Shown here in pieces: positions 2,364 through 7,142 of a DNA stretch of 7,142 bases; within the stretch, counting starts at the first letter, position 1; each line of letters opens with the position of its first letter. The translations under genes were made by a program, and so were the position numbers. The notes below the pieces were generated by a model. It saw only the letters and a program-made list of their open reading frames with translations, was not told where the DNA came from and searched no databases. Origin of the DNA: Desulfobacterales bacterium (GTDB lineage Bacteria > Desulfobacterota > Desulfobacteria > Desulfobacterales > UBA5852); assembly GCA_016735415.1 (NCBI GenBank), contig JAERRP010000324.1, positions 1 through 7,142 on the forward strand, written 5' to 3'.

Positions 2364-3977
2364 ATGCGGCCTGCGTTCATCGTCCTCTTATTCAGTACAC
2401 TGATTTCGATACAATGTTCGCCGTCCATGTTAAATCTTTACCAGGGCGAGGGCGCCCTTGTCGTCTCTGCCTGCCATGAGTCGCAATATGACCTGTCCGA
2501 CGTTCCGCACATCATGCGAAAACCCGGCCCTTCCCTTCCCACGCTTAAGGTTATCAATCCCCTGGATGGAGCTGTGTTTCCCCAGGACATGCCGGCGCCA
2601 CGGTTCGAATGGAGCGATGCGCATTATCACAGCGTCAATTGGGTCATCACATTCTCTTCTGACGTACTGGATGCATTGTATATCGTTACCGACCGGCAGC
2701 GATGGACACCGGAGCCCTGGCAGTGGGACAGGGTGAAAATCGGTGCGGGCGAAAAACATCTTCGCGTCGAGATCCGTGGTTTCAGCCGGGACCTTGAACC
2801 CGTTTCATCGGCGATCTTCAGCCTGCGGTTTTCCAAAGATCCTGTGGAGGCCGCCCTTTTTTACCTGGAAATGCCCCTGCCTTTTTCCTTTGGAGAGCGG
2901 CATCCGGAAACATTGCGCTGGAAGATCGGCGACCCCGTTTCTTCCGCTCCCCCTCGTGTGGTAGCCCAGGGCTTGCCGACTTGCAGCAACTGCCATTCCG
3001 TGTCAAGAGACGGCCGGCTTCTCGGCGTGGACATGGACATCGACGGTGACAAGGGGGGCTATGTCCTGGTCAGGACCGAGCGGGACACGGTTGTCTCCAG
3101 GCCGGATCTGGTCAGCTGGAACAGTTTTACCGGGCCGTCGGGACGCAAGAGCATGGGGCTGTTCTCAAAAATTTCGCCTGACGGCCGTTACGTGGCCAGT
3201 ACGGTATGGGAACACTCCTTCTTCGCCTATCTCGATGACGTATGGTACTCGCAATTCTTTTTTCCCATCCGGGGCGTTATCGCGGTCTACGATATCGAAA
3301 AGAAGTCATTCCAAACACTTGGCGGGGCCGATGATGAAATGTTTGTGCAGACGTGCCCCGACTGGCACCCGGATGGCCAAAGCCTTGTTTTCGCCCGGGC
3401 CAAACCGGCCCCTTCGCTGTTTAAAGCCTTGGGCGACCGCAAGGTTCTACCCACTTCTCCCGGGGACCGAATCCAGGCCCTCAACAAAATCCACAAACTG
3501 CACTTCAACCTTTACCGGAGCCCTTTTGGCCAAGGCGGTGGCGGGAGGGCACAACCCTTGAACGGAGCCAGTCACAATGGCTTCAGCAACTACTTTCCCA
3601 GGCACTCGCCCGACGGGCGGTGGATCGTTTTCACGCGCAGCCCAAACGGTTTGGCCATCCAGCCGGAAAGTGAACTGTGGATCGTACCCGCGGCCGGTGG
3701 TGAAGCCCGGCGCATGCGCTGTAATTTGAGTCCCATGAATTCATGGCATAGCTGGTCTCCCAACGGTCGCTGGCTGGTTTTCAGCTCAAAGGCCAGAGGA
3801 CCTCATACCCAACTATACCTAACGCATGTGGATCGAGAGGGCCAGGATAGCCCCCCGGTGCTGTTGTCCCGTTTCAGCAGCCCAGGATACGCGTGCATGG
3901 TGCCGGAATTGGTCAACCCCGGCCTGCTGCAGGTCCGGTCTATCACCTTGGGCCAGGACATCGAAGACAGTCGTTAA
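2364..3977 (+). CDS. Exported c-type heme (CxxCH) protein with TolB/PD40-like beta-propeller
   Basis: This gene encodes 537 residues. Residues 1-18 form a short signal peptide (basic start, then FIVLLFSTLISI). The Cys at 18 is preceded by Q, so it is a poor lipobox and the protein is more likely periplasmic or secreted than a lipoprotein. Residues about 60-155 look like an Ig/FN3-type sandwich with the opening motif NPLDGAVFPQDMPAPRFEW. CSNCH at 207-211 is a c-type heme attachment motif, followed by SRDGRLLGVDMD, so one covalent heme is expected after export. Propeller repeats then follow: KISPDGRYVAST (269-280), DWHPDGQSLVFAR (333-345), RHSPDGRWIVFTRS (413-426) and WSPNGRWLVFSSK (464-476), the SPDGxxxVF pattern of TolB/PD40 blades. 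Proteins combining this single heme motif with a PD40 propeller are known as uncharacterised families, and their electron partner or ligand is not established. The gene stands alone, 207 bases before the next one. A redox or sensing role is inference. Confidence 0.85.
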   Translation: MRPAFIVLLFSTLISIQCSPSMLNLYQGEGALVVSACHESQYDLSDVPHIMRKPGPSLPTLKVINPLDGAVFPQDMPAPRFEWSDAHYHSVNWVITFSSDVLDALYIVTDRQRWTPEPWQWDRVKIGAGEKHLRVEIRGFSRDLEPVSSAIFSLRFSKDPVEAALFYLEMPLPFSFGERHPETLRWKIGDPVSSAPPRVVAQGLPTCSNCHSVSRDGRLLGVDMDIDGDKGGYVLVRTERDTVVSRPDLVSWNSFTGPSGRKSMGLFSKISPDGRYVASTVWEHSFFAYLDDVWYSQFFFPIRGVIAVYDIEKKSFQTLGGADDEMFVQTCPDWHPDGQSLVFARAKPAPSLFKALGDRKVLPTSPGDRIQALNKIHKLHFNLYRSPFGQGGGGRAQPLNGASHNGFSNYFPRHSPDGRWIVFTRSPNGLAIQPESELWIVPAAGGEARRMRCNLSPMNSWHSWSPNGRWLVFSSKARGPHTQLYLTHVDREGQDSPPVLLSRFSSPGYACMVPELVNPGLLQVRSITLGQDIEDSR

Positions 3978-4184: not shown

Positions 4185-5069
4185 GTGGAATATCCAACCC
4201 GATCGGTCTCCTTTTTAATCCCAATGGTAATGACGGCCTGCCTTGTTCTGTCAACCGCCAGCGCCTTTGCCTATGGCGGCGGCGGCGACGGAGGTGATGC
4301 CACAGGCACGTCACTCACAGGCGATTCCACCTCCGAGAACAAAACCCCGCCTGACGGTTTCGACCCCTCTTCGGATCCGGGCATGGGCGGTATCGTGAGC
4401 GATTTCGGGACGGGGGAGATGGACACCTCTTCCCAGGGAACCAGCGACGACCAGCGCAACCTTGAGGAAAAAATCAACGAAGAAGCGGGCCGGCGTGAAA
4501 TCGAAGTCCAGCAGCGGCAAGAAGAGGAGGAACGCAACCGTCCGCCAACACGTATGGAGGTCTCTAATCAGGCCCAGGAATATCTGAGCAATCTCCCCCC
4601 GGAAGTCCGGCAGCAACTGACCCAACGATATACCTCGGCAGAGATTTTGACCATCAAACAATTTGGTCAAATGACTGACGCCATCCGGAACACCAAAGAT
4701 CCGGAACTGCTGCATATCCTGCAACAGGGGCTCACCAATGCCCAGAACAATTTTGTCAAGAATCATAATGTTCGTCTGGCGCAGCGCCAGGCCCAGTTGC
4801 AGCGGACCAGGGAGGATGCCGAGTTTGTGGCAAAATTCATCGTAGGTGTTGGTGTCAATGTTGCGACCGCCGGCGCCGGCAAGGTCGGAATCGCAGTGAA
4901 TATTGCTTACAACACCGCCGTTGGTGGTGCCAGGGGGGGAGGAACGGCGGCGGTCGCGACAGCGCTCACGAGCAAGATTCCCGGGGGTAACATCGCCGCG
5001 AATGCCGTTCGCGATGCCATCACCCAAGAGGCGGTCAATCAAGCCATCGAGCCCGACAAAGCCCACTAA
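4185..5069 (+). CDS. Exported protein of unknown function: coiled-coil segment and Gly/Ala-rich C-terminus
   Basis: This gene encodes 294 residues and starts at GTG behind a strong ribosome binding site. Residues 1-29 are a Sec signal peptide: FLIPMVMTACLVLSTASAFA, with likely cleavage after AFA (29). The mature protein opens with a Gly run (31-34) and a Ser/Thr/Asp/Gly-rich low-complexity linker to about residue 90. Residues 91-120 are extremely charged and helical (EEKINEE, REIEVQQRQEEEERNR), consistent with a coiled coil, and 125-215 stay predominantly helical with many Gln. From about 214 to 290 the composition changes to Gly/Ala/Val (FIVGVGVNVATAGAGKVG, AVGGARGGGTAAVATAL), small-residue segments that could pack as glycine-zipper helices or insert in a membrane. 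There is no catalytic motif and I do not recognise a family. It leads a three-gene cluster in which every product is exported, which suggests an envelope or extracellular role. A resemblance to linker regions of secreted toxins is only compositional. Confidence 0.8.
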   Translation: MEYPTRSVSFLIPMVMTACLVLSTASAFAYGGGGDGGDATGTSLTGDSTSENKTPPDGFDPSSDPGMGGIVSDFGTGEMDTSSQGTSDDQRNLEEKINEEAGRREIEVQQRQEEEERNRPPTRMEVSNQAQEYLSNLPPEVRQQLTQRYTSAEILTIKQFGQMTDAIRNTKDPELLHILQQGLTNAQNNFVKNHNVRLAQRQAQLQRTREDAEFVAKFIVGVGVNVATAGAGKVGIAVNIAYNTAVGGARGGGTAAVATALTSKIPGGNIAANAVRDAITQEAVNQAIEPDKAH

Positions 5070-5078
5070 GGTAACGAT

Positions 5079-6017
5079 ATGATACGATTCAATCGACAGC
5101 TTTCGTACAAGTCTGCGCCGTCCCGTCCGCAGACGTTTTTTCTCATGGCTTTTCTGGGTTTGATGATGTCCATGGGTCTGACCCGGTTGGCAGAGGCCCA
5201 GGACGATCTGGAGATTGTCAGGCGTGCCGTCCTGGTGCCCCAGGCCGTAGGCATCGCCCTCACCGGTGGTAAGGCCGACACCATCCCCGACCGGGTCGGG
5301 TTTTCCAAGCGGATACGCGCCGACGCCTATTTGGTCAGGAATGGTTTCCGGTTGGCCCGGGTTAACACCTCCTTCTATCGCGCGGATCTCCTTTTGGGAT
5401 CACTGACCTTTGAGGACGATCTGGGGCGCAGGGTATGCAAAGCCTACACCATCAACTATGTATCGAAAGGTAAGGACCGCCTCATCGTCCGTAAGGCCAA
5501 GATGAACAATATCACACCGTTTATCCCGGCCCATGAAGTCTATATCGTCCCTGCTGAAAAAATGAGCCTGAAAAAGATGCGGACCAGGGCTTTCACTGAT
5601 CTTCTGACCTTTGCCAGGAAGCACACGATCCAAGTTACCCAGGAGGCCCTGGACCCGGCGCCACGCAACTACCAGGTCCTAGTTTTTGACATGGATCGCC
5701 TCCACCCCAAAGACGGATGGAATCTCTTCGCGGATGAAACCATGGGCCGCTCCTGGGGTAAAAACGGATGGATGGTGGCCGGAACGACATCGAGCTTTGC
5801 CGTCAACGGCCCGGATGAAGTCATCTTCCGGGTCTTCCACGCCCGTGGGCGGGGCAGTGCGGTGGCGGGCAAGACTCTAGCCGTGGGGGCCTTTACCAAT
5901 CATTACCAGCCGCCCATACCGGCCGGCCCTTCACCCGTCGTTGAGGTCACCCCCGCCATGCGGGAACTGAAGACCCGCTATGCCTCCAAGGCCTTCCCCA
6001 ACCTGAACAAGGAGTAA
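5079..6017 (+). CDS. Exported protein of unknown function, paralog of the downstream lipoprotein
   Basis: This gene encodes 312 residues and begins 9 bases after the previous stop, with a modest AAGG upstream, so it is probably translated from the same mRNA. Residues 1-40 form a signal peptide with a long n-region and a hydrophobic core FFLMAFLGLMMSMGL (20-34), ending in LAEA with likely cleavage after Ala 40. The mature part looks like mixed alpha/beta. Residues 104-179 align with residues 108-182 of the next protein: G107, L115, R117-R118, Y123, Y127, D133, P150, M162, and F172-x-D174. The second half also shares a Y (198), DR (206-207), P (210) pattern and a DEVIFRVFHARGRG segment matching TELYAKVTFREAKG. 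One Cys (120) remains in the mature chain, so no intramolecular disulfide. A Pro-rich tail follows residue 276. I see no enzyme motif and recognise no family. Location in the periplasm is inferred. Confidence 0.85.
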   Translation: MIRFNRQLSYKSAPSRPQTFFLMAFLGLMMSMGLTRLAEAQDDLEIVRRAVLVPQAVGIALTGGKADTIPDRVGFSKRIRADAYLVRNGFRLARVNTSFYRADLLLGSLTFEDDLGRRVCKAYTINYVSKGKDRLIVRKAKMNNITPFIPAHEVYIVPAEKMSLKKMRTRAFTDLLTFARKHTIQVTQEALDPAPRNYQVLVFDMDRLHPKDGWNLFADETMGRSWGKNGWMVAGTTSSFAVNGPDEVIFRVFHARGRGSAVAGKTLAVGAFTNHYQPPIPAGPSPVVEVTPAMRELKTRYASKAFPNLNKE

Positions 6018-6026
6018 AAGGCTGAC

Positions 6027-6896
6027 ATGAGACGCATTCAAGCGTGTATGATTTATTCGCTGGCGATGCTGCTGGTCCACACCCTGGCAGGCTGCATTCC
6101 CACGATGGTCCGCAGGACAGAGCCACCGCCCATGGCCATGTCATTCGACAGCATGCCCCTGGAGGCGGCCACCATCACTTCGGCAGTATCGATTCAAACG
6201 CTGACACCGCCTCTGGAGACGACGAGCAATGTCCGTTTTGCCGACGGTGTGAACGGTCGTTCCGAAGTGGTCATGGCCTCGGAAGGCTTCGTGTTCACGG
6301 ACAGTATCCTTTACGCCTTTCGCTCTGCGGTCCATGGTCAGCGCGGGATGGTGGCCGGAATGATTGGCTATTCGGATCCCCTTGACCGCCGGGCCGAATT
6401 TCTCTACTTGGCCGAGTATGAAAAAAGCGGAGACGCATATGTGGTCCATAGCCTCAAGCTAACGCCCAAGTACGCCGCCGCGCCGCGGATGCGGCTGTTC
6501 GTAGTCGCGCGGAAGGACATGCCCCGGGAACGGCGCATCGCAACCTACGCCGATTTTGTCACTCTATTGGCCGATAAAGCCATCGGCCCGGAGGTCTACA
6601 GAAAGTCCAGCGGCATGGCCGCCTACGTCATCATCGCCATGGGCGCGGATCGTGTGGCCCCGGACGCCGAACTGTGCCTGGGCGTCTCGGCCGACAGGAC
6701 TAGCATTATCTGCTACAAGGCGGACAGCAGGTTTTATTGTTACAATGGATGGCCCGTAGCAGTCCTGACCGGCGGCATGGATCCGGCGGGCGCAACGGAG
6801 CTCTACGCCAAGGTTACCTTCCGGGAAGCAAAAGGCGGGATGTTCGCTTTTACCAAGCTGCTCTGCGTCCACCAGCTATCCGGTTTTAAGGATTAA
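6027..6896 (+). CDS. Lipoprotein of unknown function, paralog of the upstream exported protein
   Basis: This gene encodes 289 residues and lies 9 bases after the preceding stop. Ribosome-binding candidates are AAGGAG at 6009-6014 and AAAAGG at 6016-6021. The N-terminus MRRIQACMIYSLAMLLVHTL is followed by a clean lipobox LAGC with the lipidated Cys at 23. Ile at +2 gives no inner-membrane retention signal, so the outer membrane is likely. Residues 30-60 are a Pro/Thr/Ser-rich tether. The folded part aligns with the upstream protein (G111, L119, R121-R122, Y127, Y131, D136, P153, M165, Y174-x-D176, and the later Y200, DR 208-209, P212), so the two probably arose by duplication. Unlike its partner it carries several cysteines in the mature part (217, 229, 238, 280) that could form disulfides in the periplasm. 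There is no enzymatic signature and I recognise no family. As last gene of the cluster it may be the membrane anchor of a complex. No T-tailed terminator follows. Confidence 0.87.
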   Translation: MRRIQACMIYSLAMLLVHTLAGCIPTMVRRTEPPPMAMSFDSMPLEAATITSAVSIQTLTPPLETTSNVRFADGVNGRSEVVMASEGFVFTDSILYAFRSAVHGQRGMVAGMIGYSDPLDRRAEFLYLAEYEKSGDAYVVHSLKLTPKYAAAPRMRLFVVARKDMPRERRIATYADFVTLLADKAIGPEVYRKSSGMAAYVIIAMGADRVAPDAELCLGVSADRTSIICYKADSRFYCYNGWPVAVLTGGMDPAGATELYAKVTFREAKGGMFAFTKLLCVHQLSGFKD

Positions 6897-7037: not shown

Positions 7038-7106
7038 TTAGCGTTTCCAGCGACCGAAAAATTCAGAAGTACTTCTTCTTGAAAAGTAGTTTGCCATTAT
7101 GAGAGG

Positions 7107-7142
7107 GAAATAGGGACAGGGCGAAATAGGGACCGAAATAGG
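7107..7142 (+). repeat. Three clustered direct copies of GAAATAGG(GAC) at the window edge
   Basis: GAAATAGGGAC occurs at 7107-7117 and 7123-7133, and a third copy begins at 7135 and is cut by the window end after GAAATAGG. Start-to-start distances are 16 and 12 bases. From memory, strings like AAATAGGGACAG often flank Y1 (IS200-like, REP-associated) transposase genes in Desulfobacterota-type genomes, so a mobile element may begin just beyond the window. That link is recall, not tested here. Confidence 0.55.

Follow-up and report, generated by a model that had tools for sequence, protein, structure and literature searches.

Organization of the locus

The window analysed here, a stretch of 7,142 nucleotides (positions 1 to 7,142 of contig JAERRP010000324.1) from a Desulfobacterales bacterium, carries two adjacent genes whose products are probably tandem paralogs, one soluble and one lipid-anchored. 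The first gene (5079-6017, + strand) encodes P0001, an exported protein of 312 amino acids without a lipobox, and the second (6027-6896, + strand) encodes P0002, a lipoprotein of 289 amino acids; both open reading frames lie where the initial annotation had placed them. They follow a gene for a glycine-rich, exported-looking protein of 294 amino acids (4185-5069, + strand), which would be the first gene of a putative three-gene operon.

Exactly 9 base pairs separate each stop codon from the next start across the three genes, and their content of guanine plus cytosine (G+C) is similar, at 0.575-0.590. Ribosome-binding-like stretches are clear before the first and third genes, with AGGAGGT ending 5 bases before the GTG start of the former and AAGGAG upstream of the start of the latter, and weak before the P0001 gene. 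Between positions 3900 and 7142, no promoter-like sites are seen and terminator-like sites number 2 against 3.5 expected, while an Rfam scan of the window returns no family at gathering level. The three genes look like an operon that would be transcribed as a unit.

Shared motifs and probable common ancestry

The initial annotation had aligned the two proteins by eye around the motif G-x7-L-x-RR-x4-Y-x3-Y. Direct reading recovers this motif as GSLTFEDDLGRRVCKAYTINY in P0001 (residues 107-127; 5397-5459, + strand) and as GMIGYSDPLDRRAEFLYLAEY in P0002 (residues 111-131; 6357-6419, + strand). The weaker C-terminal match is likewise present, with DR-x2-P read as DRLHP in P0001 and DRVAP in P0002, and with DEVIFRV facing TELYAKV. 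Additionally, the proteins have in common an NGW-x-V motif that the annotation did not list, located at residues 229-233 of P0001 (5763-5777, + strand) and 240-244 of P0002 (6744-6758, + strand).

BLASTP gives a collinear match with 20% identity over 250 columns (25.4 bits, E 0.001 as a single comparison), and the collinear alignment spans about 160-250 columns. A profile of five lipoproteins, namely P0002 and its database relatives P0003-P0006, scores mature P0001 at 18.9 bits in hmmsearch, a value reached by none of 10,000 shuffles (best 10.0). Leaving P0002 out of the profile yields 15.8 bits, again reached by 0 of 10,000 shuffles (best 10.9). The two proteins thus show profile similarity beyond shuffled controls, which do not mimic two real beta-rich proteins. 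In single-sequence phmmer comparisons with P0001, the shuffles per 10,000 that reach the real score number 0 for P0002, 7 for P0003, 21 for P0004, 56 for P0006 and 1,327 for P0005; P0005 alone therefore shows no similarity to P0001.

A profile-profile alignment, the check that the initial annotation proposed, is favorable in part. With four sequences, hhalign returns E 2.3e-5, a value that, like that of BLASTP, refers to one comparison chosen for gene adjacency, but the probability is only 75.9%; with five sequences the values are E 6.4e-5 and 64.3%. Across all six aligned sequences (P0001-P0006), L-x-RR, P, D and GW-x-V are invariant. Because the match is collinear and the residues shared by the pair are invariant across all six sequences, P0001 and P0002 very probably descend from a common ancestor. 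Their paralogy is a real but modest finding.

Anchoring and predicted folds

The two N-termini, both read by eye, differ as the initial annotation had claimed. P0001 begins with a putative type I signal sequence (residues 1-40; 5079-5198, + strand) that ends in LAEA/Q, and its end, AEA/Q at about position 5199, carries no cysteine. A long charged stretch lies ahead of the hydrophobic segment, so translation may in fact begin at an ATG further downstream. P0002 carries the lipobox LAGC with cysteine 23 (6084-6095, + strand). This cysteine is invariant in all five lipoproteins, preceded by LAG, ATG, ATG, LAA and LSG. The contrast between a conserved lipobox cysteine and a type I signal end supports different anchoring of the pair, with P0001 apparently a soluble exported protein and P0002 apparently lipid-tethered.

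In the AlphaFold2 models, strands and helices follow one another in almost identical order in both proteins, in line with the shared fold that had been anticipated, but the second model was built on the lipoprotein alignment and is for that reason not an independent test of the fold. The secondary structures predicted for the two coincide at 184 of 207 aligned core positions (89%); sliding the alignment by one position lowers the agreement to 78-81%, and sliding it by three lowers it to 56-61%. Judging from the models, both proteins look like beta-rich, two-part folds whose second half resembles an immunoglobulin-like sandwich. A viral library searched by fold with the lipoprotein model yields no match at or below E 0.001.

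The lipoprotein family and the search for relatives of P0001

Relatives of P0002 occur in the protein database: P0003, P0004 and P0005 were found in one search and P0006 in another, with identities to P0002 in the alignment of 44%, 42%, 40% and 45%, respectively. The search that yielded P0006 scored the 8,000 candidates with the most words in common, and P0002, P0003 and P0004 are not among its matches listed; because of this limited candidate list, its list of relatives is not exhaustive. P0002 is a full-length member of the P0002-P0006 family, with the lipobox cysteine, the FDSMPxEAA block, the LDRR and GWPV motifs and at least 40% identity, whereas in P0006 LDAMP replaces FDSMP. The search listings show no Pfam domain for P0003-P0006.

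P0001 has the core motifs in common with these proteins, whereas the lipobox and the N-terminal block are found only in the lipoproteins. Since it lacks both the lipobox cysteine and the N-terminal FDSMPxEAA block, P0001 is a distant relative rather than a member of the family. Searched against about 5.8 billion database proteins, it matches only itself among 3,038 scored candidates sharing short words. Genome contigs scanned with P0002 only reveal no relative, a scan that used few short peptide patterns and that distant relatives can escape. Viral contigs scanned with the lipoprotein alignment, the 4185-5069 protein and P0001 reveal none either, and such short-pattern scans can miss distant ones. 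Similarly, tblastn finds no relative of these proteins in plasmids and, with P0002 only, none in phages.

Over the core, P0001 is 18-20% identical to every lipoprotein, and the lipoproteins are 39-88% identical among themselves. In the tree, the branch leading to P0001 measures about 2.9 substitutions per site, whereas those of the remaining tips measure 0.02-0.78. All five tested points of attachment for P0001 fall within the 95% confidence set, so that the tree favors neither an early duplication nor one specific to the lineage. Duplication followed by a change of anchoring, as the initial annotation proposed, is plausible from the sequences: common ancestry, the differing anchors and the lipoprotein character of all four relatives fit it, but with those five attachments all retained, the order of events gains no such support. 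P0001 may thus be an old paralog or a fast-diverging one, and the pair would be ancient or fast-diverging tandem paralogs.

That neither protein belongs to a known family holds for Pfam, NCBIfam, PHROGs, PADLOC and PDB sequences. Searches with P0001 and P0002 one by one bring up no Pfam or NCBIfam family within an E limit of 1 and no PDB sequence within a limit of 10. The six aligned proteins give one Pfam match in one protein (E 0.22), and the sole PHROGs line for the pair is P0001 at E 0.28. A defence role gains no support from PADLOC, where neither P0001 nor P0002 matches a family. Literature searches under general terms return nothing on the pair, terms too general to show absence from print, and the accessible part of PMC9012536 contains nothing pointing to these proteins.

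Neighboring genes

Besides its signal-like N-terminus, the upstream protein (4185-5069) has a low-complexity region and a charged one, and its C-terminal part is rich in glycine and alanine. It has no match in Pfam at E up to 1, only chance-level matches in NCBIfam (E 0.11 and 0.24), weak PHROGs matches of unknown function (E 0.019 and 0.14), and neither a PADLOC family nor a PDB sequence match. It may work as a partner of the two paralogs.

Farther upstream lies a gene for a PD40 beta-propeller protein (2364-3977, + strand), which scores 34 bits against a TolB cut-off of 343 bits. The protein contains a CSNCH motif (CxxCH, possible haem c), and it matches six plasmid records, from Parabacteroides, Phocaeicola and Bacteroides, at 25-27% identity. 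It is preceded by what is left of a gene for a family 3 solute-binding protein (SBP_bac_3; 1567-2163, - strand), whose E of 0.0034 and 17.6 bits lie under the 26.4-bit cut-off. The part with an open frame matches just the profile's C-terminal end and has a stop codon immediately upstream, and the remnant is probably a decayed gene. An amidohydrolase gene (25-1287, + strand; PF07969, E 4.9e-62) has its N-terminal part cut off by the window start: the profile is matched from position 83, and the frame is open to base 1. Its best plasmid matches listed come from Novosphingobium, at 36-37% identity. At the other end of the window (7102-7142), GAAATAGGGAC units are repeated; a 27-base pattern drawn from these repeats has no exact match in viral contigs.

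Functional interpretation

Gene order and the difference in anchoring point to a possible envelope module in which one copy is tethered and the other soluble. The tandem paralogs of the putative operon would act jointly as an envelope binding module, a proposal to which we give an even chance. Under this proposal, the lipoprotein would be fixed to a membrane, and soluble P0001 would either cooperate with it or share its partner, for which the upstream glycine-rich protein is a candidate. We infer that the envelope is of the Gram-negative type and that the genes are co-transcribed, and the localisation of the proteins, their joint action and any binding are inferences as well; that the two might bind one another, or the product of the gene upstream, is purely conjectural. 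A more specific version, an undescribed envelope complex in which a heterodimer of tethered and soluble two-part immunoglobulin-like copies would capture or assemble the upstream protein while the soluble copy diverges too fast for homology searches, is a speculative and rather improbable elaboration.

Several observations weigh against ancestry or joint action. An hhalign probability of about 95% is usually taken as certain; the 64-76% obtained here lies below that level, and the fifth sequence lowered it. The absence of detected relatives for P0001 beside lipoprotein relatives at 40-45% identity, its long branch and its missing FDSMPxEAA block all favor paralogs that work independently, the lipoprotein keeping a conserved function and the soluble copy having gone to another task or being weakly constrained. 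This account, which we consider possible though less probable than joint action, is nearly as good because the lipoprotein is found elsewhere and its partner is not. Against it, the P0001 frame is intact, its third-position G+C resembles that of its neighbors, the motifs are retained and the gene lies 9 base pairs from both neighboring genes. Convergence of unrelated beta-rich exported proteins, or chance, is very unlikely: the identity near 20%, the hhalign values and the P0005 result speak for it, but the match is collinear, the motifs are invariant in relatives from elsewhere, and no shuffle reaches the profile score even without P0002.

Relation to known systems

An asymmetric envelope complex can arise in a simple way when a gene is duplicated in tandem and the product switches between a lipid-anchored and a soluble form, and the present pair, 20% identical and without a family name, would add one more testable case. 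Furthermore, orphan proteins can be linked through gene neighborhood where database searches fail to link them. Among known structures, the closest comparison is with immunoglobulin-like beta-sandwich proteins, whose fold is similar to that of the second half of each model: the two models show PDB resemblance to immunoglobulin-type domains in corresponding regions, 149-287 and 150-275. They differ from these proteins in that Z stays below 7, identity is 4-13% in the rows shown, and a helix is inserted between strands. As far as the models can tell, the immunoglobulin-like resemblance would reflect a common arrangement rather than demonstrated kinship.
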